DNA of 53,785 bases from Thraustochytrium sp. TN22 (Eukaryota; Sar; Bigyra; Thraustochytrida; Thraustochytriidae). The position numbers and the translations under genes were made by a program. Positions 27,523 to 41,543 of the stretch are shown here, piece after piece (the stretch's first letter is position 1; each line of letters opens with the position of its first letter). The DNA is taken from contig JABLUY010000251.1 of NCBI GenBank assembly GCA_013306675.1, positions 1-53,785 on the forward strand, in the 5' to 3' direction. Below the pieces are notes generated by a model. It made no database searches. It saw nothing but the letters and a program-made list of their open reading frames with translations, and was not told the origin of the DNA.

Positions 27523-28382
27523 CCTCCCGCGCCCGCGCCCTGCCCAGCTCCTCTCCCGCTCCTCCTCTTCTCCTCGTCCTCCTCCTCGTCGATGATGCGG
27601 TTCTGCCTCGCCTGGATCCTGCCCGCCGCGCGCGCGCACCGGACCCGGCGCGGCGCGCCTCCGCAGACAGCGCCGCGCCCGGGTCCGCTGCGGCGCCGTC
27701 GGTCCTACGACTTTTTGAAATCTGGTTTTCGAAATGCGATGAGATGATCAAAGTCTGGCAACCAAAAGCAACCAGCGCAAGCGACCAAAGCTCTCATCAG
27801 CGCGGCGCGCGGCGCGCGGCGCGGCGGCCGCGGCTGCGCGAGGTCGCGCGGCGCGGCGCGGCGCGGCGCGGCGCGGCGCGGCGCGGCGAGGCGCTGGCCG
27901 GGGCGGATGGCGGGATGCAGGAGGGATGGCCGCAGGTCTGACTAGAGGCGCAGGACGAGGGCGACGGCGCGCGCGGCGACGAGGAGTACGAGGCGCGGTG
28001 GTACCGAGGACCGGAGCTCTCGGTTTTATTCGCCGCATCGTACCAGTGCGCGCGCGGCTGCTGCCACCGCCACTGCACGGGCAGGCAGCTGTACCAGGAG
28101 GAGCAGTCACCGCGCTGGCAGCGCCGGTGGCCGCGGCCTGGCGTGGTCATGAATGACGGGAGCGGCAGGCGCGCACGCGCGGCGGGCCAATGGGATGCAG
28201 CGTTGCGGCGCGTTGCGAGAGGCGCGCGTGGGCCGGGCTGAGTCACACAACGCGCATGTCCGGTGGCAGGGGCGGTGGACTCTCTCTGTCTGGAGGCGAC
28301 GTCGAGTCCGGACTGGACAGCGGGGGCGAGGGCGACGCCGACGTCGACGCCGACCAGACCTGCATCCGCGGCGCGCGCAAGG
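27523..28382. promoter_or_regulatory. Divergent promoter region between ECHS1 and the polyQ/WD40 gene
   Basis: The spacer contains a pentanucleotide gcggc run (about 27845-27890) and a less GC-rich stretch at 27705-27795. A second frame starting at the ATG at 28256 encodes an acidic, protein-like N-terminus (MSGGRGGGLSLSGGDVESG) but is out of phase with the downstream gene, so either it is an upstream ORF or there is an unseen intron or sequence error. Confidence 0.4.
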
Positions 28383-28758
28383 ATGACGACCGTCTTTGCG
28401 TGCGACGACGAGCTGGCGTCGGCGCCGGGAAGCGAAGAGTCAGCTGTCTCGCGCCAGAAGCGGACGACGTCCATGGTGAGCCTAGGAAGCCTGCACAGCG
28501 GCGCCTCGCTCGAGCTCATCGGCATCACAGACCTGTACGTGGCCGCAGAAGGTGCAGAGAGTGGGGCGGCGGGGGTGGACATGGGGGAGGACGAGGGCAG
28601 CATGGGCGACCTGGACTGGACGGGCGAGTTCTTTCATGAGATGGGCGAGTTCGCGCCGCGCCCGCGCCGCGCCACCGCCGCATCTGGCGCCGCCAAGACT
28701 CCATATCGCCTGGATCACGAGCGGCTGCCTTCTCCGCCTCCAATCCCGCAGCAGCACT

Positions 28759-28847
<89 letters not shown>

Positions 28848-30581
28848 CAACAACAACAGGGACAGGAGCTTCGGCAGCATCAAGACCAAGACCAGAACAT
28901 GCACCAGCATGACCACGAAATCCAAGACCACCAATACGCACCTCTGCCGGACCTGCTGCAAGGCGATTGGGGCGTTGAGGGTTCCGCTCGCGTCCCCAGC
29001 ACGCCGCACTTCGACGTGGCGGGTGCTCCTGCGTCGCACTCCGCTTTACCTCTCTCGGACGTGCAGCCGCGCGCGCGCCTGCACGCGCGAACCTTGACGT
29101 CTGACGGGGTGTCCAGCCTCGGCGGCCGCGCCGGCGACGAGGCGTCTTTCATGGGCGAGTCCGCCGTGTCGTCGTCCTCGAGCTCCTCGCTGGGCAGCCC
29201 CACGGCTGCCACGGACGCCGGAGCAACCTACCCGCCGCCGTTCCGGACGCAGCTCAGCGCGCGCGACCTGTTGGCAGACGACCTCGGCGTGGGCTCGAAC
29301 CGCGCGGCACCGGCGCTGCAGCCCGTCCAGGTGGTGCCCCTCGCCAAGTGCGCCTTTAGCAAGTCGCGCTCGCTCGGTCGCGTGCTGGTCGGCCCCGCTG
29401 GCTCGGGGCTCATCATCGCAGGCACCGACCAGCTCCTTACGCGCGAGGCGCTCGCGACCAAAAAGAAGGACGGCGCCATCGTCGTGGCTCGCATTCGGAC
29501 CCCGGCCTGCAAGGAGGATTTTGGGAGCGCGCGCCCCTACGGCGACGACGTGGACGGCGCCGAGGAGGGCGACGAGGAGCACCCGGCGCGGTCCGCCTCG
29601 GCGTCCTCGCTGCCGAGTCCGCGCGAGCGTGCACGGGCTGCCGCTTGCGGGCGGCCACGGCTGGTGCCGGAACCCCCGCTCGTGCACAAGACCATGCGCC
29701 TCGGCGAGGCCTGCGTACGAGACATGATCTGGCTCCAGGCCGGCCAGCGCGCGCTCGTAGCCACGGACACAGGCTTTGGGCTCGTCTTGGTGGACCCCGA
29801 CGAGGAGGGCGGCCTGGAGGGGGCCTCGTACGAGGCGTGTCAGGCCGGTGGCCGCGTCAAGGCCAGCACGCTCCGCCAGCTCGCCGTGCCGCCCGCGTAC
29901 GCGCGCGAGACCTCCGTACGCGTCGCGTCTGGGGGGTTCGACCGCCGCGTCCAGGTCTGGCAGCCAGACCGCATCCTCTTCGATCGCATCGCGCCGCCCG
30001 AGGCCGAGCACGCCACGGACGGCGTTGTGGGCAGCGTGCAGTGGCACCCGTGCTCCCCGGACATTGTCAGCTGGACGCTGGACCACGGAAGCTTCGAGAT
30101 GTACGATTTGCGCAGCGCCTCCACCGTGCGCTGCTTCGACGACGCCAGCGCGCACGCGTCCGCGTCCACGGCGCGCTCCGCGCAGCTCTTCACGCACGCC
30201 TACATGGGCGAGACCACCGTCATGCTCGGCTTCAGCAACGGTTGCGTCAAAGTCGTCGACGTGCGCAAGCTTCAGGTCCTCTGCGGCTGGCGCGATGACA
30301 CCGTCTCCATCATCGGCGACATCTCCATGTCGCCCTGTGCGTCCAAAGCGGTCCTCACCGGCATCGGCGGCGCCTCCGTTTTTGCCACGGCTGCTTCGCG
30401 CTCGAGCTACTCGGCGGCGCCCGTCGCCAGCATCGGCTTCAGCGACCCGCTCTTTTCGCCCAGCGGCTTGCGCCTCCCAGCCTACGCCTGCAAGACGGCC
30501 GCCACTTTTCTGGATGAGGATACCTTTGCGCTCATGGACAGCGGCGGCACCTTCTCGCGCTTCTCGCTCGCAGACCTGTAA
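28383..30581 (+). CDS. PolyQ-containing WD40-like protein
   Basis: 732 aa from the ATG at 28383. The N-terminal third is low complexity with a polyglutamine run (about residues 127-159) encoded mostly by CAG, ending in CAA codons, followed by a H/Q/D-rich stretch. The C-terminal part (about 330-732) reads as a beta-propeller with WD40-like blades: VRVASGGFDRRVQVWQ, VVGSVQWHPCSPDIVSWTLD, GSFEMYDLRSASTVRCF, and VMLGFSNGCVKVVDVRKLQ. The repeats are few and divergent, so the family is uncertain. Such proteins are scaffolds, and no specific role can be named. It converges tail to tail with the next gene, with only 28 bases between stop codons. Confidence 0.78.
28761..28858 (+). repeat. CAG/CAA microsatellite encoding polyglutamine
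   Basis: About 26 consecutive CAG codons followed by a short CAA run, in frame in the WD40-like gene. Pure CAG runs are length-unstable, and the CAA codons at the end are typical interruptions. Confidence 0.95.
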
Positions 30582-30609: not shown

Positions 30610-32073
30610 CTACTTGGACATGCCTGCGCGCCTCCGGAGCTCCTCGCTCCACAGAGCCTCGGCGGCGTCTCTGTCAAAGACCTCCTCGACTCCTAGCTCC
30701 TTGTTGCGCCGATACATTTCCTTCCAGAGGCGGTGCATGAACGCCAGGCGTTCATTCTCGCTCGTCTTGATCCTTGTCCAGCTTGGCTTCCGAAAAATCT
30801 CCGCCAAGACGCATGGTTTCTCCTCGTGCTCCCAGCGCCACTTGAGCACCTCCTCGTTGAGGAACTCCAGAGCCCCCTTGGCCAACATTTGTCTGCGCGC
30901 AAACTCGCCCAAAACTCTGGCTCTCCAATGCGCGCGGGCCTTGCTGAGTTGCCGCGAAATGGGCACGATGACATCGTCCGAAATCGAGGCCGCCTGGCTT
31001 GACGCGCGCGGTGACGAGGAAGCGGAACTGCCTTGCGGCGGCGAGGAAGGACCGTCGCTGCAAGTACTGACAGTAAGGGCGGACGTCTTGCGACGACGGC
31101 GCTGAGGATCCACAATATCGGCCCAGGTTCGTTCGGGCATGGGCGGCTCCTCCTCCTCTTCTTCTACGTCTTCTCCTTCCTCGAGGTGCATGGTCGGCGT
31201 CTTGACCTCGGCTGCTTCCGGCGCCTTGCTGTCGCTCACCGTTGCGCGATCCACGTGCGCGACGGGCGGGGTTCCACTGCGTTGCACTTTGACACCAGGG
31301 ACCTGGCACCAACCATCCACGCTGGGGATGATGACCACCTGCGGAGGGCTCATCGTTTGTAAAGGGCTGTGTGTGGAGTCCTTGTCAAGCATGCCGTTTT
31401 CGTCAAGCACGCTGTTTTCGTCAAGCACGCCGTTTCCGTCAAGCACGCCGTTTTCGTCAAGCACGCCGTTTTCGTCAAGCGCGCCGTTTTCGTCAAGCAC
31501 GCCATTCTCATCAAGCGCGAAGTCCTCGTCAAGCGCGAAGTCCTCCTCTCGCGGGAAGGCTTCATCAAGCGCGATGTCTTCGAGCACCATCCCCGCCATG
31601 ATTTCCGCGAGAGCTCCGGCCCCGTAGGAAGACTCGTGTGATGCTTCGTTCGACGATTCGCGCGACGATTCGTGCGACGACTCGCGCGACGCCTCGTACG
31701 ACGCCTCGTACGACGACTCATTTGAGGAAGAGACGCATGTGAGCGTCCATGGGTTGTCGCTGTCAGTGATTGTGGCAACTTCCTCACTGTCAGTCGCAGA
31801 AAGGGGCTGCTCCGAACGCGACGGAGCCGACGGCAAAGGGACGGACGGCGGCTGAGTCGAGGGCGGATGCGGCTGATGCACAGAAGGCAAAGTCTCCTCA
31901 GCAGAAACCGTGCCCGAAGGAGGAGGCAAAGCGCTGGAGATCGCGGCGGTCGTTTCCGGCGGCCAGATGAGCATGGAAATCAACTCCACGACGCCATGGG
32001 CAACATTCCGTAGGAGGTTGCCGCACTTCGCCGCTCTTTTACGTGCTCCTCCAGGGGTGGTTGCGTTACTCAT
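30610..32073 (-). CDS. Unrecognised protein with two kinds of tandem peptide repeats
   Basis: 487 aa, ATG at 32073. I recognise no family. The first 40 residues include a hydrophobic stretch (HGVVELISMLIW). Residues 117-149 repeat a four-residue S-x-E-(A/S)-like unit (SYEASYEASRESSHESS). Residues about 179-231 repeat the hexapeptide LDENGV, encoded by 18-bp tandem units at about 31380-31540. An acidic run (EEEEEE, about 304-309) and PERTWADIVDP follow. The last 110 residues are helical and non-repetitive (WRARVLGEFARRQMLAKGAL, WKEMYRRNKELGVEEVFD) and look like the only folded domain. Codon use is less GC-extreme than the neighbours, with short AT-richer flanks. It may be lineage-specific. Confidence 0.68.
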   Translation of the reverse strand: MSNATTPGGARKRAAKCGNLLRNVAHGVVELISMLIWPPETTAAISSALPPPSGTVSAEETLPSVHQPHPPSTQPPSVPLPSAPSRSEQPLSATDSEEVATITDSDNPWTLTCVSSSNESSYEASYEASRESSHESSRESSNEASHESSYGAGALAEIMAGMVLEDIALDEAFPREEDFALDEDFALDENGVLDENGALDENGVLDENGVLDGNGVLDENSVLDENGMLDKDSTHSPLQTMSPPQVVIIPSVDGWCQVPGVKVQRSGTPPVAHVDRATVSDSKAPEAAEVKTPTMHLEEGEDVEEEEEEPPMPERTWADIVDPQRRRRKTSALTVSTCSDGPSSPPQGSSASSSPRASSQAASISDDVIVPISRQLSKARAHWRARVLGEFARRQMLAKGALEFLNEEVLKWRWEHEEKPCVLAEIFRKPSWTRIKTSENERLAFMHRLWKEMYRRNKELGVEEVFDRDAAEALWSEELRRRAGMSK

Positions 32074-32666: not shown

Positions 32667-35600
32667 TTACTCCTCCTGCTCGCGAAGGTAGCTGATGAAC
32701 TCATCATCGTCATCGCCAGCACCCTCCGGGGCGCCCTCCGCGGGCGCGTCGCCCGAACGAGCCGCAGGCGCGCGAGCGGCAGCGGGTGTGGACGCCGGGG
32801 CAGCCGCGGGCTGGGCCGGCGCAGGGGCCGGGGTGGGGGCGGCTTCCTCCTCCTCCTCCTCGTCGTCGTCGTCGTCGGCGGGACCCTCGCGGTTGGCGGA
32901 CTCGGCGGCGCGCTCGAGGGCCTGGAGCAGAGCCTGGAGCGGGTTCATGGGGGCCGGCATGCTCTGGAGCTCGCTGCGAAGCTCCTCGAGGTCGCGGACC
33001 TCGCCGGTCTCGGTGAACATCTGGCCGGTGACGAGGCGGGCAAAGTCCGGGATGAGGCCGGCGCCGCGCGAGCCATCCATGTGGAACCAGACCTCGGGGA
33101 CGCCGGTCTCCGGGATGGGCGCGGCGCCGATGACGGTGATGCGACGGCCGTCGGGGTCCATGAAGACGGCGCCGGACTGCTGGCCGCACATGCGGCGCAG
33201 AACCTCCTCGCGCACGTCGAACTGGCACGGGGTGGTGTTGATGCCGGTGCCGCGCGGGAACTCAAAGGTGGTGCTAAGCTGGATGCGGCGGCGCTCCTCC
33301 TCCGTGGGCGGGGTGAACATGTTGCGCGGGGGGTCGATTTGCTCGAGCGTCTTGTGCTCGCCAGTGCGCTCGAACTGGTTGAGGTCGTTGTGGAGGTACG
33401 TCCAGACGCTGGCACCCGGGTTGCGGTCGTTGTGGAGCCAGAAGCGCGGCACCTCGGACTGGTGCATGCTGACGCCCACGGTGGTGAAGGTCGTGCCGGA
33501 GGTCTTGTGGCGGATGACGTCGCCGTGGCGCAGGAGGTCGCCGCCGACCTTGAAGCCGAAGCGGTCGAGCATCTCGGAGCGGATGTCGAAGGAGGCGTAC
33601 TCGCGGAAGCGGACGCCGGTGACGTACTTGAAGTCCTGCTCGACGTGGGTGGCGACATAGTCGAGCTCGTCGTTCTCGATGCCATCGTCGGAGTGGCACT
33701 CCCAGTCGGCGTGGTGGATGGGCTCGACCTCGCGCGTGTCAAAGGCCTCGAGGGCGCCGAGGAGCTCGTCGGGGAAGAGGCCGGCGCCGACGGAGCCCTC
33801 GCCGCTAATGACGCGAAACCAGAGCTTGATGTTGCCCTCCTCCTCGACGCCGACGCCAACGCAGACGGCCTCGACCGGGGTGCTGGGCAGGCGCACGACC
33901 TGGCCGGCCTCGTAGCCGCCGACGGCGCGGCAGATCTCGGGGCGAACGTCGAACTTGGCCCAGTGGCCGAAGCGCTGGCCCTTGGGAAAGGCAAAGGTGC
34001 AGCGCAGGTCGCGGTGCGTGATGCGGCCCGAGGGCGCGGCGGAGCGCGGGCGGAAGACGACGCCTTCGAGGTCCTCCGGATCGGCGTACTCGATGCCGGC
34101 TTCCTCGGCGGTCTCAAACTTGAGCTCGTGCTTGTCGTCGGCGCCGATGCGGTACGTGTTGGTGTAGCCGGTGCCGAACCAGTAGACGCGGGCCCAGCCC
34201 GGGTTGACGGGCGCCTCGTAGGTGCGCGGGTGGCCGTCGTAGCCGTCGGGCGCGTTGAGCGCGCCGTGGGCCTCGCCGTCGAGGGAGCGCCAGTTAATGA
34301 TCATGCCGGGGCCCTGGAAGTCCTGCGGGCGGCGCTCGTCGCCGTAACCCCAGCCGCTGCTGTTGCGCAGGACGATGGCGCCGTCCCAGAGAACCTCGTC
34401 GGTGACGCGCGCGCCGCGCAGCACGGTCTCGCGGAAGTTGTCGTAGATGGCCATCTGCTCGAGGTCGAAGCCGCAGGCGCGCTGCACATCCCTGTCGGGC
34501 ATGGCGAGGAGCTCCTTGCGGCCGAGGCCGGAGCCCTCGATGCGGTCGGTGGGCAGGCCGAGCGTCTGGAAGTCGCGCACGAGCACGTGCTCGGGCGAGT
34601 CGACGTCGACGGCGTCCTTGGCGCTGCGCAGGCGCGCGATCTCGGCCGGAGTCCAGTTGAGCAGCTCGCGCAGCGCGCGGTTGCGCAGGCGGCCGAGGGC
34701 GTCCATGGTGTGCACGCCGTTCTCGAGGAGGCGCGGCAGGCGCTCGATGAGATCGAGCTCGCGGAGGCGCTGGGCCAGGCCGCGCGCCTCGACCGGCACG
34801 GCGTTGGCGTCCATGACCCGGCTCACGTCCGGCAGCACCTTGCGGCAGTCAAGCGCGAGGTTCTGCGAGGCGCACTCGCAAAAGTGCTTGAGCTCGGCCT
34901 CCATGGCGCGCACCTCGCCGTCGGCGTGCGCGTCCGAGTCGAGGAAGAAGCACGGCAGGCGGCGGTCCATGGTGCGCAGCTCATTGATGAAGGGGAAGCG
35001 GCCGGCGAGCTCCTCGTTCCAGCGGGTCGACATAAAGGCCACGTCCTTGCCCTTGCGGCGGCGCACCGAGGCCGGGTCCGTGAACCAGTGCGAGAAGACG
35101 ATGCAGGCGTGCGCCCAGAACTGCTTGCCAAAGTTCTTCTCGAGAGTCGTCAGCATCTGCGTGAGCGGGCCCTTGAGCCGCGCCTCCTGCGAGTTGAGCA
35201 CGATCGCGAACGTGTGCACCCAGCCCAGCTGCGCCAGCTTGAAGAGCATGTCGGCGGCCTGCTCCGCGTCGCGGCCCTCGCTGTCCATGAGCCCCGGCGT
35301 GTCCACCAGCACAATCTCTTCGCGTGCCTCGTCGCCCAGCCAGTTCGTCAGGTACATGGAGGTGGTCTCCGTCACGCTGTGCGGCGTGTCGTCCACGACG
35401 AAGACGCCGTTCTCGCGCGGCAGGCCGGCCAGCTTGGACGCCAGCAGCGACTTGCCCACGCCCGTCTCGCCCAGCATCACCGTCACGGCCCGCACGGGCT
35501 GGCCCAGCAGGGAGCGGATGCTCTGCATCCACCCCACCGCCTCGAATAGGCTCGGCGACTCGAAGTTGTACTCCGTCACCTGGCCGTCCGTGCCCTTGGC

Positions 35601-35933
35601 GCTAAGCTGCCACTTGCCCTCGCTCTTCTCCTGCGCGTTCGGGCTCAGCCGCGCGTCCACGATGTCCGCCACCTTGCACAGCGGCTCCACGCGCGCCGAC
35701 TGCCGCTTCGACCGGAACGACGAGAACCGCTTCGACCCGAACCGCACCAGCACCAGGCCGTCGTCCTTGTCCACGCGCAGCACGCCCTCCGCCGGCTGCC
35801 CGCCGCTGAACACGCGCGAGGCGCGGAACATCGACTGCCGCCGGTGCTCCTGCTTGCCCAGCATCTTCACCACGCGCTCATTCGTCTGCATCTGCGACGC
35901 GATCTCCTCCGAGTTCTCCAGGATGGACGACAT
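32667..35933 (-). CDS. PH-like / AIG1 GTPase / MIB-HERC2-like / FDVR-repeat multidomain protein
   Basis: 1088 aa, ATG at 35933. In order: a PH-like domain (about 45-144); an AIG1-type GTPase (about 147-370) with P-loop GETGVGKS (155-162), DTPGLMDSEGRDAEQ (DTPG at 211-214) and SHWFT where AIG1/GIMAP proteins usually have a (T/R)KD-type G4; two helical, SAM-like or DEATH-like segments (about 385-440 and 450-507); a MIB/HERC2-like domain (about 515-606) with GAIVLRNSSGWGYGDE and YWFGTGYTNTYRIGADDKHE; and three repeats (about 645-725, 768-850, 888-963) with FDVR/FDIR and AGLFPD signatures. The tail is acidic then proline/alanine-rich. The GTPase and MIB/HERC2-like calls are by eye from family motifs. 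MIB/HERC2 domains elsewhere occur in ubiquitin ligases. A role in membrane-linked signalling or defence is inference only. Confidence 0.8.
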   Translation of the reverse strand: MSSILENSEEIASQMQTNERVVKMLGKQEHRRQSMFRASRVFSGGQPAEGVLRVDKDDGLVLVRFGSKRFSSFRSKRQSARVEPLCKVADIVDARLSPNAQEKSEGKWQLSAKGTDGQVTEYNFESPSLFEAVGWMQSIRSLLGQPVRAVTVMLGETGVGKSLLASKLAGLPRENGVFVVDDTPHSVTETTSMYLTNWLGDEAREEIVLVDTPGLMDSEGRDAEQAADMLFKLAQLGWVHTFAIVLNSQEARLKGPLTQMLTTLEKNFGKQFWAHACIVFSHWFTDPASVRRRKGKDVAFMSTRWNEELAGRFPFINELRTMDRRLPCFFLDSDAHADGEVRAMEAELKHFCECASQNLALDCRKVLPDVSRVMDANAVPVEARGLAQRLRELDLIERLPRLLENGVHTMDALGRLRNRALRELLNWTPAEIARLRSAKDAVDVDSPEHVLVRDFQTLGLPTDRIEGSGLGRKELLAMPDRDVQRACGFDLEQMAIYDNFRETVLRGARVTDEVLWDGAIVLRNSSGWGYGDERRPQDFQGPGMIINWRSLDGEAHGALNAPDGYDGHPRTYEAPVNPGWARVYWFGTGYTNTYRIGADDKHELKFETAEEAGIEYADPEDLEGVVFRPRSAAPSGRITHRDLRCTFAFPKGQRFGHWAKFDVRPEICRAVGGYEAGQVVRLPSTPVEAVCVGVGVEEEGNIKLWFRVISGEGSVGAGLFPDELLGALEAFDTREVEPIHHADWECHSDDGIENDELDYVATHVEQDFKYVTGVRFREYASFDIRSEMLDRFGFKVGGDLLRHGDVIRHKTSGTTFTTVGVSMHQSEVPRFWLHNDRNPGASVWTYLHNDLNQFERTGEHKTLEQIDPPRNMFTPPTEEERRRIQLSTTFEFPRGTGINTTPCQFDVREEVLRRMCGQQSGAVFMDPDGRRITVIGAAPIPETGVPEVWFHMDGSRGAGLIPDFARLVTGQMFTETGEVRDLEELRSELQSMPAPMNPLQALLQALERAAESANREGPADDDDDEEEEEEAAPTPAPAPAQPAAAPASTPAAARAPAARSGDAPAEGAPEGAGDDDDEFISYLREQEE

Positions 35934-37952
35934 GGTCGTACCTCAGCTCCGCGCCCTCCTTGCCAAGCCCTTCGCGCGATCCCGGCCTCCGCCGCCTCGC
36001 GCCGCTCGCCGCGCTGCGCCCCGCCGCCCCGCGCCGCGTCTCGTCCCTCGCCGCCGCGCGCCCGTCCCGTCCCGTACCGCGACTGCACTGCGCGGCACTG
36101 CCGCCGCGCGCGAGCGAGGGACCGAGCGAGCGAGCTAGCTAGCCTAGAGCGCTGGCCGAGCGAGAGTGGAGCTCCCTCAGCTCCGAGCTCGTCCACGCGC
36201 ACGCGCCGCGCCGCGCCGCGCCGCGCCGCGCTCTGCACGCGCGAGCGAGCGACCGAGCGACCGGGCGAGAGCGCGCCAGGGAGCGCCGGGCCGCCGCTCT
36301 CGATCGATTCGGTTTTGCTCTCGCGACTTTGAGCTTGACTGTGAATGAATGCGCGCCTGCCTCGCCTGCTTGCAGTGCCTTGATCATCATCTCGCCCTCC
36401 AAGGCGAGCGACCCGGAGAGCGCGCGTCCCCGCGGCGCGGCGGGCTGCGGGGCTGCGGGTGCTGCCGCGCTGCTTCCGCGCGACGTTCTCCGCCCCGCCG
36501 CCCCCTCGCACCACTGCCGGCCGCGCCCCCAGTGCGGAGAGAGTAGCCTCCGGCTTTAAAACGCCCACAGAAGCAGGTGCGGGCAGCGACAGGAGGGGCA
36601 CGCGCGGGCTGTGGCCCCGCAGCCAGCGCGGCCGGCGCGCGCCCCGCCGCCGTCGCAAGTGGTAAAGAGGCGCCGCGCAAGTGGGAAGCGGCACGCCGCA
36701 TTGGCCGCAAGGCGCGCTGGGCGCGCACACGGCCACTTGCCCAGTCTTACCGTGCTGCGGACGCGCGCGCGCCGCGCGGCACGTGCCCTGGACTTGTACG
36801 CATTGCTACATTGCCGCGGCGGCGCCCGGCCAGACTGTCTGACTCGGACTGCCAGTGGGACTCTGGGAGGTCAACCGCGACAGCTGCTGCTGCTGCTGCA
36901 GTGCAGTGCAGTGCTGCCAGCTGAGCCGCTCAGCATGCAGGCCGAGTTCAGGTTCCTTGCTTCGATCGCAGGTGCAGCCGTCAGGCCGCGCGACGCCCCA
37001 GCCAGCCAGCCACTGGCAGCCGACCGTGACCGCCACCAGCCCCGAGAGCGACGTGACCGGGCTGCGCGCGCCGCGCAGCGCCGCACGCGCCTTGGTGTCC
37101 AGCCAGCACGTGGCCGCTCTCGGCCGCTCTCAGCAGCCGCTCTCAGCCGTGGTCGCTCTCCAACTAGCCTAATCTTCGGAGACTCCGACTCGGACCGAGC
37201 CATCATCGTCATCTTCCTGCACGCTGAGAGCGGCTCAGCTGAGCTGGCTGAGCTGAGAGCGCGGCAGACGACAGAGCCAGGTCCGGGCTCGCGCACTGCA
37301 CAACTAACCCCGTTTCGAATCAGATCAGATCCTCACCAACCGAGTCTCGCTCGTCGCCTCCTCGGCGGCGTGAGTCGACGCGCGCGGGCCCAGCCCGGCC
37401 AGGCTGCCAGGCAGCCAGGGCGCTCTCCGCTCACGCGACTCGCGAGCCGCCGCCGCCACCGCCGCCGCGCGCTCGGTTCTGCCTCTCCTCTCCTCGCGCG
37501 CCGCGCAGCGCCCGCGCCCGTTCGAAATTCGAATTTCAAAACCCGCGTGGCGGCCTCTGCCCGCGCGCCGCCGCCGCGCCGCGCCGCCGCGCCCGCCGGC
37601 GCCGCCGCGCGGCGCGCGCTGGCCGCGGGGCGCGCTGGGCTCGGCTCGGCTCGGCTCGGCTCGGCGGCGGGGGAGCCGGGGCCGAGCGAGCGCGAGAGCG
37701 GCGCGGCGGCCACCGTGCGCGCGCGCCATAGGCGATAGGCGACTTGCGCGCGGCGAGCGGCAGTGGCGGCGGCGCGGCGCAAGTGCGCTATCGCGGGCAG
37801 CGCCACTTGCGCGCGCGGCGCGTGCCGAGGCGAGGCGCGGCAGCAGGCTGTCAGAAGAGTCAATCGCGCGTGAATCAATCTCCCTTCGCCCGATCGAGCG
37901 AGCGGTGACGGCGAGCGCGGCGGGGGCGGCGCGCGGCGCGGGGAGGAGGCGA

Positions 37953-37983
<31 letters not shown>

Positions 37984-38012
37984 GCGCGGCGGCGGCGGCG
38001 GCGCGCGGCGCG
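35934..38012. promoter_or_regulatory. Divergent promoter region between the GTPase and HECT genes
   Basis: About 2.1 kb with no supportable gene. It has GAGC tetranucleotides and GCTAGC palindromes (about 36108-36145), a cgccg run near 36205-36232, gctgctgctgctgctgcagtgcagtgcag at about 36886-36914, a ggctc run (about 37641-37665) and a gcg run just before the HECT start. Open frames are low-complexity R/A/P. Confidence 0.45.
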
Positions 38013-41000
38013 ATGGCGTCGGCGGCGATGCGGCGCCAGAGCGAGGCGCGCGTGCTGGAGCTGGCGGCCCAGGAGCAGAATCGGCGCGCGCAATCGCCCG
38101 ACGACGAGTACGACCCGGAGCTGGACGCGCCGGGCGCGGGCGACCTGCTGGAGGCGGAGCTCGGGTTCGAGGAGGAGGACTTCGAGGAGGATGAGGACGA
38201 GGTGGAGGAGGCGCTCGGGGGGCTGCCGCTGGCGGACGCCTTCGGAGCGCCGCAGCAGCAGAACCGGCGCGCCTCGCTCTCGCGCAACGTGCGCGCCAGC
38301 CTGAGCAAGGTGACCAAGTCGGCGGCCTCCGTCAAGCAGGGCCTCGGCGGGCGCGTGAGCCTGCGCCGGTCGCTGGGCCGCGGCAAGGGCGCGCAGACGG
38401 CGCGGCCGCAGTGGCGCGCGCTCGAGGCGTCGCCGCTGCTCGACGTGGACGGCCCCGCCGCGAGGCCCTTCGCCTGGGACCCGGCGGACGCCGGCGCGCG
38501 CGCGTCGCCCTGGGAGCTCGCGGCCGCCGGCGCCGGCGAGGCGCTCGTGTCGGTGAGCGCCAGCGCCAGCGGCGACCGGCTCGCCTGCGCCACCGTGTCG
38601 GGGCGCGCCTTCGGCGGGGCCGAGGCCGAGGCGGAGCTGGACCTGGGCGCCGCCGGCCAGGCTGCCGTGCAGGTCGCCTGCGGGCGCGACTTCGTGGGCG
38701 TGCTGACGAGCGAGGGCCGCGTGCTGGCGGCCGCCGGCGCCACGGCCACGCGCGCGCGGCCCGTGGCCGTGCCGGCCGCCGAGCCCATCGTGCAGCTCGT
38801 GAGCACGGAGGACTCGCTCGTTGCCCTGGGCGTCTCGGGCCGCGTCTTCGTGTCGCGCCCCGGCTCGTTTGCGCGTCTGCACGTGGCCGCCAAGGCGCTG
38901 CGCTTCGTGCCGGTCAAGCTGCTGGCGGCCGGCCCGGCGCACTGGCTGGCCGTCACGGTCTCGGGCCGCGTCTACGGCTGCGGCTCCAACGCGGACGGCC
39001 AGCTCGGCGCCGGCCTCCCAGCCGTCGTGCCGGACCCGGTGCGTCTGGCCGTGCCCTTCGCCGTGGACGCGGTGGCCTGCGGGGCCGCGCACTCGGTGCT
39101 CGTGGGCCAGCCCAGCGCCATGCTCTGGCTGGGCGCCGGTCGCCCTGCGGATGCGGACACGGCGGCCTTCTTTGAGGCCAGCGGCATCGACCTGGTCGGC
39201 GTGACGGCCGGCCCGGGCGCCTCGGCCAGCTTTCTCGGCGCCTCGGGCGAGGTCTTCTCCTGGCGCGAGGGCGACCGCGAGCCGCGACTCGTGGAGCTGC
39301 GCGGCGGCGCCCGCGGGCTCGAGGCCTACGAGCTGGCCGCGCTGGCCGACGGCGTGCTGGCGCTGGCGGCGCCGGCCGCCGCGGCGCGCGCCGCGCGCTC
39401 GGTACGCGCCGCGCTGGGCGGCCGCACGCACGAGGCCGCCTGGGTGTCCTCCGCGGAGCTCTACAACGCGGCGCAGCGCGCGCACGAGACGCTCGCCATT
39501 GACGAGACGCGCACCATGCTGCAGTGCCTCCTGCAGGACCCCTACATGCTGGCCGGCAGCCTCTGCCGCCCCGCGCACCGCCCCACGGCGAGCGCCTCGC
39601 GCCTCGCGTGGGCGACGCAGTCGCAGCCGCACGACCGCGTGCTGGCGCGCACGGACCGCGCGCTCGGCTCGGGGCTCGACGTGGAGGGCGTGGTGCGCGG
39701 CCTCCTGGCCGCCACCAAGGCCATCGTGCAGGCTCAGGCCGAGGGCGACGTGCCGGACGTGCGCCGCCTGATGCAGGCCCTGCTGCAGCCCGTCACGCGC
39801 ACGCTCGTCAAGTTCGCGCCTTTTGTCACGGAGCCGGACCAGGTGCGGGCGTACTATCTGCTCTTCATCTCGCCCACTGGCCTGGTGGCCCAGCTCGAGC
39901 ACGAGCGCCTGGTCATCGCCACCGAGAAGATCCCGCGCGACGCGCTCCAGGGCTACTTGCACCAGTGGATCTACCGCGAGGTCCCGGGCGATATCCTCTC
40001 CAAGTATGTTGTGCCGCGCGTCGTCGACGCCATCGGCGTCTACCTTCGTCGCAAGCACTTCACCCGCCCCAACCTGAAGCAGCTCTGTCTCGTGGCGCGC
40101 CGCCTCTACCTCATGAACAACGTGCGCTTCGAGCAGGAGCACAAGCGCAGCTACACGCTCCTGGAGGATACCTCCGGCCCCGCAACCAGCACGACGGCCA
40201 TGGTGGATGCGCCCACGGTCGTGCAGGCGCCCATCCCGCTCGAGAGCTTTTACACGCGCGAGCTGCTCAGCTACACGCCCGAGTACCTGCGTGGCATCTT
40301 CGACCTCTGGCGCAATCCCAAGGGCAAGACCAAAACCTGGAGCATTTTCCAGTACAGCTTCCTGCTCTCCCCGGACACCAAGACCATGGTGCTCATGATC
40401 GAGGACCGTGAGTCGATGCAGGTCAACATGTTCCAGGGCCAGTTCCTCGGCGGCTTTTTGCCTGGCATGGCCAACTACTTTGTGCTCGAGGTGGACCGGC
40501 AGAACCTGCTCCGGGACACCAGGACGGGCCTGGACCGCGCCAGCTCCGGCGACCTCAAGCGCCCGCTCAAGGTCAAGTTCAAGGGCGAGGAGGGCATCGA
40601 CGCCGGCGGCGTCAAGAAGGAGTTCTTCCAGCTTCTCGCCACCGAGCTCTTCAGCCCGGACTACGGCATGTTTAGCGTCGAAGGGGAGACTGGCGAGCTC
40701 TGGTTCAGGACCGACCCGCTCTCCAACGCCGCCACGGAGCCGGAGTCCTTTTGCTTCGTCGGCAAGCTCCTGGGTCTCGCCATGTACAACGCCACCATCA
40801 TCGACGCCAACTTCTGCCAGGCCTTTTACCGCACGCTGCTCGGCCGCAAGCGCAAGCCCGACCTGCGCGACCTCGCCGAGCTCAACCCGATCCTTGCCAA
40901 CGGCCTGCGCGAGATGCTCGAGTACGACGGAGACGACTTTGAGGATATTTACATGTACAACTTCGAGGCGCCCCCGCACCGCAGCCTCACAGGCAAGGCG

Positions 41001-41543
41001 GAGCCGCTCATCCCCAACGGCGAGCGTATCGATGTGACACGTGACAACGTCAAGGACTATGTCGACCGCTACATCCAGTTCGTCCTCGTCGACAGCGTCA
41101 AGCCGGCGATCGACGAGCTCATGCGCGGCTTCCAGATGCTCATCCCCATCAACCTTCACTCCTTCTCCCTCTTCCGCCCGGACGAGCTCCAGCTCGCGCT
41201 CACCGGCTCGGACGAGTTTGATATCGAGCAGATTCGCGCCAACACCACCTACGAGGGCGGTTACACCTCGTCCTCGCCTATTGTCTCCTGGCTCTGGGAC
41301 ATTGTCGCCGAGCTTCCGCACGCCAAGCAGCGCGACTTTTTGCGCTTCTGCACCGGCGCGCCCAAGCTTCAGGTTGGCGTTTTCAAGATGAAGATCCAGC
41401 GCGCCGGTCCCGACTCCGAGCAGCTGCCTACTGCCTCCACGTGCTTCAACATTCTCCTCATTCCCGAATACTCGTCCAAGGAGAAGCTCCGCACCAAGCT
41501 CCTCGTCGCTATCAACTACGCTGAGGGCTTTGGCCTGCAGTAG
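38013..41543 (+). CDS. HECT E3 ubiquitin ligase with RCC1-like repeats (HERC-like)
   Basis: 1176 aa from ATG at 38013; the 36-residue upstream extension is polyalanine and has no separate support. The N-terminus is acidic (about 25-75). Residues about 150-460 contain degenerate RCC1 blades, such as LVALGVSGRVFVSRPG, VTVSGRVYGCGSNADGQLG (around 321) and VACGAAHSVLVG. The C-terminal 380 residues are a HECT domain: PLKVKFKGEEGIDAGGVKKE, FVGKLLGLAMYN, FQMLIPI, and the catalytic LPTASTCFNILLIPEY (Cys1144) near the end, followed by EKLRTKLLVAINYAEGFGLQ. The thioester cysteine and flanking residues match active HERC/NEDD4-type enzymes. It transfers ubiquitin to substrates; the RCC1 part probably selects them. 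It converges with the flippase gene. Confidence 0.94.
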   Translation: MASAAMRRQSEARVLELAAQEQNRRAQSPDDEYDPELDAPGAGDLLEAELGFEEEDFEEDEDEVEEALGGLPLADAFGAPQQQNRRASLSRNVRASLSKVTKSAASVKQGLGGRVSLRRSLGRGKGAQTARPQWRALEASPLLDVDGPAARPFAWDPADAGARASPWELAAAGAGEALVSVSASASGDRLACATVSGRAFGGAEAEAELDLGAAGQAAVQVACGRDFVGVLTSEGRVLAAAGATATRARPVAVPAAEPIVQLVSTEDSLVALGVSGRVFVSRPGSFARLHVAAKALRFVPVKLLAAGPAHWLAVTVSGRVYGCGSNADGQLGAGLPAVVPDPVRLAVPFAVDAVACGAAHSVLVGQPSAMLWLGAGRPADADTAAFFEASGIDLVGVTAGPGASASFLGASGEVFSWREGDREPRLVELRGGARGLEAYELAALADGVLALAAPAAAARAARSVRAALGGRTHEAAWVSSAELYNAAQRAHETLAIDETRTMLQCLLQDPYMLAGSLCRPAHRPTASASRLAWATQSQPHDRVLARTDRALGSGLDVEGVVRGLLAATKAIVQAQAEGDVPDVRRLMQALLQPVTRTLVKFAPFVTEPDQVRAYYLLFISPTGLVAQLEHERLVIATEKIPRDALQGYLHQWIYREVPGDILSKYVVPRVVDAIGVYLRRKHFTRPNLKQLCLVARRLYLMNNVRFEQEHKRSYTLLEDTSGPATSTTAMVDAPTVVQAPIPLESFYTRELLSYTPEYLRGIFDLWRNPKGKTKTWSIFQYSFLLSPDTKTMVLMIEDRESMQVNMFQGQFLGGFLPGMANYFVLEVDRQNLLRDTRTGLDRASSGDLKRPLKVKFKGEEGIDAGGVKKEFFQLLATELFSPDYGMFSVEGETGELWFRTDPLSNAATEPESFCFVGKLLGLAMYNATIIDANFCQAFYRTLLGRKRKPDLRDLAELNPILANGLREMLEYDGDDFEDIYMYNFEAPPHRSLTGKAEPLIPNGERIDVTRDNVKDYVDRYIQFVLVDSVKPAIDELMRGFQMLIPINLHSFSLFRPDELQLALTGSDEFDIEQIRANTTYEGGYTSSSPIVSWLWDIVAELPHAKQRDFLRFCTGAPKLQVGVFKMKIQRAGPDSEQLPTASTCFNILLIPEYSSKEKLRTKLLVAINYAEGFGLQ

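Follow-up and report, generated by a model that had tools for sequence, protein, structure and literature searches.

An AIG1-type GTPase with a MIB/HERC2-like domain and a recurrent head-to-head RCC1–HECT neighbour in a thraustochytrid genome

Introduction

AIG1/GIMAP proteins have been linked to plant and animal immunity, yet their mode of action is unclear. Among the AIG1/GIMAP/IAN GTPases (Pfam PF04548), to whose superfamily Toc34 also belongs, a review describes the activity of GIMAP2 and GIMAP7 as dependent on dimerization (PMC8201404), a figure legend states that dimerization of GIMAP7 supplies a catalytic arginine finger (PMC8066113), and arginine fingers are listed for both AIG1/GIMAP and TOC34/TOC159 (PMC11238149). 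Snail AIG proteins fall into 19 architectures, with death, kinase, ARM, hint and other domains, and the part of that account listing them names none with MIB/HERC2 (PMC7053062). Here we describe a gene from Thraustochytrium sp. TN22, found in a 53,785-nucleotide stretch of contig JABLUY010000251.1 (the window), that encodes an AIG1-type GTPase with a MIB/HERC2-like domain and a triple C-terminal repeat and that lies head to head with a gene for an RCC1–HECT ubiquitin ligase.

MIB1 contains ZZ and SH3 repeats as well as two MIB/HERC2 domains. The MIB/HERC2 domain forms part of the Delta-binding region in MIB, HERC2 carries RCC1-like, MIB/HERC2 and HECT domains on a single chain, and the RCC1-like domains of HERC1 show guanine nucleotide exchange factor activity, as summarized in PMC4565672; a ZZ domain of HERC2 appears in the title of a reference within PMC8044464. 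The thraustochytrid protein has a MIB/HERC2-like domain in common with HERC2, HECTD1 and MIB1, and its gene cluster as a whole also has RCC1-like and HECT domains and, at one locus, a Mind-bomb SH3 repeat and a ZZ-like finger. Unlike in those proteins, the domains here are split over two or three adjacent genes, and an E3 catalytic domain is absent from the GTPase chain, neither HECT nor RING being matched in a Pfam scan at E values up to 10. An earlier note on this DNA, made from the letters alone, knew of no described protein with this domain order; within the open-access literature searched, we found no paper containing both AIG1 and mib_herc2, although papers using other spellings may escape such a search.

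Results

One gene with three paralogs

The open frame at 32667–35933 (minus strand) begins at an ATG, has an upstream stop three codons 5′ of it and encodes 1,088 amino acids. Searching the whole assembly (37.9 Mb, 453 contigs) with this protein returned four places: the gene itself, on the window contig (C168), and one paralog each on C423, C89 and C59, which, like C391, C449, C2 and C196 below, are other contigs of the same assembly. The paralogous frames are 1,079–1,120 amino acids long and 39–42% identical to the window copy over most of their length; across the alignment of all four, nearly the whole length is kept and the domain order is identical. GC content in the window is 60–77% (2-kb windows) and long chance frames are plentiful there, which raises the question of a chance frame or, a case that the earlier note named as refuting, of two genes run together. 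We regard either as extremely improbable: three near-full-length paralogs span both halves in the same order and rule them out, and the codon-position GC of the frame (0.69/0.45/0.95) lies within the range of other frames passing the same filter. Because the paralogs, at 38–40% identity, keep near-full length and order, the frame is, by this comparison, one real gene. Profile scans for homologs outside this genome covered viral contigs (37 pattern matches) and contigs of non-eukaryote genomes (18), and none was confirmed. The gene has the following features, in order from its 5′ end.

32667..35933, minus strand: whole gene, 1,088 amino acids, a single open frame kept in three paralogs
35496..35801, minus strand: PH-like segment, residues 45–146, unproven (Pfam PH E = 0.024, 15.6 bits; cut-off 25.1)
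34824..35495, minus strand: AIG1-type GTPase domain, residues 147–370 (Pfam AIG1 E = 1.4e-9, 38 bits; cut-off 27)
35448..35471, minus strand: G1/P-loop motif GETGVGKS, residues 155–162
35292..35303, minus strand: G3 motif DTPG, residues 211–214
35178..35180, minus strand: Arg252, invariant in the four paralogs, aligned with position 108 of 3zjc_A (GIMAP7)
35076..35096, minus strand: divergent G4 region FSHWFTD, residues 280–286, from the alignment
34605..34808, minus strand: SAM-like domain 1, residues 376–443 (sub-cut-off SAM_EPH in three paralogs; SAMSN-1 E = 0.0083)
34401..34604, minus strand: helical segment 2, residues 444–511, SAM-like by eye only
34098..34403, minus strand: MIB/HERC2-like domain with an insertion, residues 511–612 (sub-cut-off Pfam match and profile–profile comparison)
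33729..34028, minus strand: repeat copy 1, residues 636–735 (profile–profile)
33378..33680, minus strand: repeat copy 2, residues 752–852 (profile–profile)
33030..33302, minus strand: repeat copy 3, residues 878–968 (profile–profile)
32670..32876, minus strand: acidic, low-complexity C-terminal tail (from the sequence)

A GTPase of AIG1 type with a divergent G4

The P-loop and DTPG from which the AIG1 family had first been proposed lie at residues 155 and 211, matching G1 (GxxGxGKS) and G3. Profile searches could have placed the domain elsewhere; AIG1 instead outranked MMR_HSR1 and GBP in each of the four paralogs and passed the Pfam cut-off of 27 bits in all of them (38.0, 38.1, 32.4 and 28.1 bits, the last only just), with the first 125 of 212 AIG1 positions matched. 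A two-row profile (window and C59) searched against solved structures was led by GIMAP7 (2.9e-6), GIMAP5, Toc34 and GIMAP4, with GBPs and septins weaker and behind them. In the alignment Arg252, invariant in the family, falls opposite position 108 of GIMAP7 (chain 3zjc_A, 305 residues), which we take to be the arginine of the GIMAP conserved box and, if the chain bears a five-residue tag, Arg103 of GIMAP7; Arg252 probably matches the GIMAP7 arginine finger. The usual GIMAP G4 is of the T-R-K-x-D type, with a lysine. All four paralogs lack that lysine (FSHWFTD, FTHWYED, FTRWYTD and FTRWYDD), and we therefore call the protein a GTPase of AIG1 type whose G4 has diverged, and not a typical GIMAP. 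G1, G3, the conserved box with its arginine, the Pfam score and the occurrence as a paralog family are alike, whereas an N-terminal extension, SAM-like and MIB/HERC2-like regions, a triple-repeat C-terminal half, the divergent G4 and the lack of a CaaX end or strongly hydrophobic stretch set the protein apart from AIG1/GIMAP/IAN GTPases.

The suggestion that the protein is recruited to membranes found no support: none of the four paralogs has a 19-residue stretch above 1.61 on the Kyte–Doolittle scale or a CaaX-like C-terminus. The same genome encodes four more AIG1-type GTPases (C78:84244-84627, C138:47247-47639, C201:36091-36477 and C50:19442-19744), which end in the CaaX-like CLLM, CTVM, CVIQ and CSIS, respectively, suggesting prenylation; BTB_2 scores above its cut-off on C138 and C201 and just under it on C50, and was not seen on C78.

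Within the GTPase, the ratio of nonsynonymous to synonymous substitution rates (dN/dS) is about 0.2–0.3 for C59 and for C89, each compared with C423. The window copy has a GC content at third codon positions (GC3) of 0.95, against 0.76–0.82 in the other three. Between C59 and C423 the DNA is 87–88% identical from about residue 355 and 90–100% identical from about 445 to 1010, compared with 48–74% before and 50–58% after this tract, and dS falls from 1.25 in the GTPase to 0.05 in the repeat modules. Gene conversion appears to have carried the recognition half from one of these two paralogs to the other, each retaining its own GTPase.

A MIB/HERC2-like domain, helical segments and a triple repeat

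The GWGYGDE and NTYRIGADDKHE stretches that had prompted a MIB/HERC2 assignment are present in the translation, and the domain is borne out at profile level. Pfam MIB/HERC2 scores 14.9–18.3 bits in the four whole proteins and 20.8 bits with the window segment alone, under a cut-off of 33.5, and the match falls at the same place in all four; searching the genome with the family gave six places, two above the cut-off and the four paralogs below it. A profile of the four segments matched HECTD1 structures at E = 1.6e-4 and a five-domain MIB/HERC2 profile at a probability of 95.1% (hhalign, E = 3e-8). Our own profile–profile run gave 94.0% with a score of 42.1, compared with at most 17.5 for 100 column shuffles and at most 13.5 for seven other protein segments. 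The firm match is to the C-terminal half of the segment; the N-terminal half (G.xVxR...W...QD.G) gave a weak alignment with two domains of the same genome (64 columns, 18.4% probability).

The helical module proposed between GTPase and MIB/HERC2-like domain could be refined in its first part, which is predicted to open with a SAM-like domain: SAM_EPH matches three of the four paralogs at E = 7.8e-5 to 4.4e-4 (20.4–22.8 bits, under the cut-off of 27) and was not listed for the window protein in the Pfam scan, and the best Protein Data Bank (PDB) match is SAMSN-1 (E = 0.0083), with NusA second (0.011). The second helical segment matches no Pfam family at E values of up to 1 and no PDB entry better than 0.5. 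The N-terminal segment previously read as PH-like is at most a candidate PH domain: a single-sequence model of low confidence (predicted local distance difference test 60.5) has strands and a C-terminal helix, Pfam PH stays under its cut-off in the window protein and does not match the C423 segment, the PDB profile list has 15 rows of which 14 are armadillo-type repeat proteins and none is PH, and no PH fold is among the listed matches of the model (Foldseek, VIA-align).

The C-terminal repeat also stands, as a true triple repeat with copy-to-copy profile–profile probabilities of 95.8–97.8%. It has no Pfam match, and single-sequence searches of the genome with the three-copy stretch of the window and with copy 3 of C59 hit the same four genes only. 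Its best relative by both sequence profile and fold is one stretch (about 620–736) of the kinetoplastid mitoribosomal protein mS48, to which it is probably related; the core sequence is similar, whereas mS48 has a single matched stretch in a ribosomal protein and the GTPase has three copies, and no connection to ribosomes was seen for it. A Foldseek search with the modelled repeat gave no E value below 0.001, and the matches listed include tudor, CarD and CAP-Gly domains, so that the module is possibly an SH3-like barrel. This probable kinship with a ribosomal protein, together with the weak resemblance of the GTPase to GBPs and septins, would fit a septin- or GIMAP-like scaffold GTPase with no ubiquitin role, its repeats binding peptides or RNA as structural proteins do. 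We consider that explanation unlikely, as the MIB/HERC2-like domain and the HECT gene recurrently found beside it point to ubiquitin and no membrane anchor was seen.

Recurrent pairing with RCC1–HECT genes

The gene on the other side of the divergent intergenic region encodes RCC1-like and HECT domains; we place its start at the first ATG in frame.

38013..41543, plus strand: RCC1-like and HECT ligase gene, HECT domain at 40629–41537 (HECT E = 2.5e-82, RCC1 E = 1e-8)
35934..38012, no strand: divergent intergenic region between the two starts, 2.08 kb (2.05 kb at the C89 pair)

The earlier note allowed that this arrangement might be coincidence, a view that the paralogs change: an RCC1–HECT-type gene stands head to head with three of the four, directly on C168 and C89 and by way of a contig overlap for C423. 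On C89 the same divergent pair is found, with both RCC1 and HECT detected and starts 2.05 kb apart. The start of the C423 paralog lies 70 bases short of the contig end, and the final 55 bases of this contig, which are the reverse complement of the final 55 of C391, occur nowhere else in the assembly; joined in this way, the HECT gene of C391 lies head to head with the C423 paralog, about 6 kb from start to start and with one gene between. We infer the RCC1 part on C391 from the scan of C449, to which its DNA is 97.8% identical. C449 begins inside a TIR gene, at a 55-mer also found within C391, and the two contigs may represent either alternative paths of the assembly or a recent duplication. 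Positions 1–332 of C391 and 139746–140077 of C423 are 95% identical in direct orientation and flank the inferred junction, which suggests a tandem duplicated cluster.

HECT matches number 23 in the genome. A tree of 22 of these domains, omitting the partial match on C196, groups those of C168, C2, C89, C449 and C391 in one clade (support 99/95). Were the loci independent, finding a HECT gene this close to three of four paralogs would have a chance probability of 4e-8 (0.2% per gene within 7 kb); they are not independent, and we place no reliance on the figure.

A TIR gene at two loci

At C391/C423 the gene between the pair matches TIR_2 (8.1e-19) and the Mind bomb SH3 repeat (1.1e-6), with ZZ at 20.8 bits against a cut-off of 21.4, and C89 has a related gene.

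C391 5776–8550, minus strand: TIR, SH3-repeat and ZZ-like gene (Pfam)
C89 11693–13969, minus strand: TIR and C1_2-like gene (TIR 1.1e-19; C1_2, zinc-finger-like, under cut-off)

The position of the TIR gene in the cluster differs, since it lies beyond the HECT gene at C89 and between the pair at C391/C423. TIR is greatly expanded in this genome (123 TIR_2 matches with E of at most 0.001), so that having one close to the pair is in itself weak evidence; stronger evidence comes from the homology of the two genes (29% identity over 796 amino acids, E = 6e-87). The presence of a TIR protein in the cluster at two loci is a hint of a role in defence or stress. A larger system of this heterotrophic stramenopile, in which the GTPase, the RCC1–HECT protein and a TIR/zinc-finger/Mind-bomb-SH3 protein would serve ubiquitination and signalling as an innate-immunity or stress module duplicated as a unit, seems to us rather unlikely; it would combine HERC2 and Mind bomb parts, mS48-like modules, a GIMAP-like switch and a TIR effector. 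SH3_15 occurs at two places in the genome, the C391 TIR gene and a 3,423-amino-acid frame on C196, equal in length to the frame with the HECT match there. The TIR_2 matches include copies on C160 spaced about 1 kb apart with an internal TGA.

Cooperation or passive linkage

The recurrent head-to-head pairing means that the products of the two genes may work together. Our best explanation, offered tentatively and with somewhat less than even confidence, is that the GTPase is a GTP-switched recognition and scaffold protein acting with the separate RCC1–HECT ligase of its divergent neighbour. In its favour are the AIG1 scores of all four paralogs, the invariant Arg252, the MIB/HERC2-like profile match, the pairing at three loci with HECTs of one clade, the homologous TIR genes, the joining of RCC1-like, MIB/HERC2 and HECT in HERC2, and the dN/dS of about 0.2–0.3 in the GTPase.

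Several observations weigh against this explanation. The G4 region lacks the usual lysine and GTP specificity is therefore uncertain, no SAM or MIB/HERC2 match clears its Pfam cut-off, and C168 compared with C423 gives dN/dS of 0.7–1.0 in five segments, where dS may be distorted by unlike GC3 (0.95 and 0.82). Upstream of the C59 paralog is an ATG4-type peptidase gene, and that contig has no HECT. Linkage is seen for three of the five members of the HECT clade; of the other two, C2 lies on a contig without an AIG1 match and C449 is cut by the contig start. Because C2 branches among them, the linked HECTs do not form one group on the tree (three changes). Beyond the window HECT gene lies a P4-type ATPase gene, and a TIR gene was not observed next to the pair in the window.

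Identities rank alike in both families, with C89 nearer to C423 (AIG1) and to C391/C449 (HECT) than C168 is, by segment identities for AIG1 and by BLAST and tree for HECT. Such a ranking is what block duplication predicts, and it fits both cooperation and the main rival, namely that a block of AIG1-type and RCC1–HECT genes, with TIR in two copies, was duplicated and is not yet broken, its members having unrelated jobs. We hold this passive linkage to be a substantial possibility, if a doubtful one. The absence of a HECT neighbour at C59 and the recent duplication at C391, C449 and C423 speak for it. Yet with the AIG1 paralogs at 38–40% identity to the window copy and the HECTs at 34–40%, divergent order and a spacing of about 2.05 kb have been kept at two loci, and no other nearby gene tested is common with the window locus: among 175 window open reading frames of at least 150 amino acids, compared with stretches of C89 (15.5 kb), C391 (10.1 kb), C423 (the last 7.2 kb) and C59 (15 kb), matches (E 1e-6) were confined to the two genes themselves and the antisense frames that overlap them. 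Several of these domains, moreover, co-occur in single ligases elsewhere, as described in PMC4565672.

Other features of the window and genome

Downstream of the GTPase gene, 30610–32073 (minus strand) holds a 487-amino-acid frame in which an LDENG-type repeat occurs in tandem and no Pfam match clears its cut-off. The frame at 28263–30581 (plus strand) contains a long stretch of polyglutamine and matches a beta-propeller weakly, below the cut-off. Elsewhere in the genome, a PfaA-like polyunsaturated fatty acid synthase frame of 3,044 amino acids is divergent from an adjoining 2,083-amino-acid frame matching the same family, an arrangement typical of thraustochytrids.

Discussion

Both the domain content and the repeated pairing are consistent with a GTPase that picks out targets of a partner HECT ligase or brings them together, a cooperation of which we infer every functional step from sequence. 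In this scheme, GTP would drive dimerization by way of the G domain, Arg252 would complete the active site of the other GTPase, as in GIMAP7, and the SAM-like region would extend the assembly. Target binding would fall to the MIB/HERC2-like domain together with the repeat modules (possibly SH3-like barrels), and the partner HECT ligase, docked through its RCC1-like domain, would ubiquitinate the target; at two loci the TIR protein of the same cluster would join as a third component. Searches for AIG1 with a thraustochytrid genome and for a TIR domain with thraustochytrids found no open-access paper, subscription papers being mostly outside their reach, and a wider search combining thraustochytrids, HECT and TIR gave matches unrelated by title.

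The interest of the locus lies in its new architecture, its recurrent ligase pairing and its repeat module, which is unnamed and has a likely relative whose structure is solved. In this protist the GTPase comes with a recognition domain of ligase type and, repeatedly, with a HECT gene as its neighbour, which offers a testable hypothesis, that the GTPase selects targets for ubiquitination.

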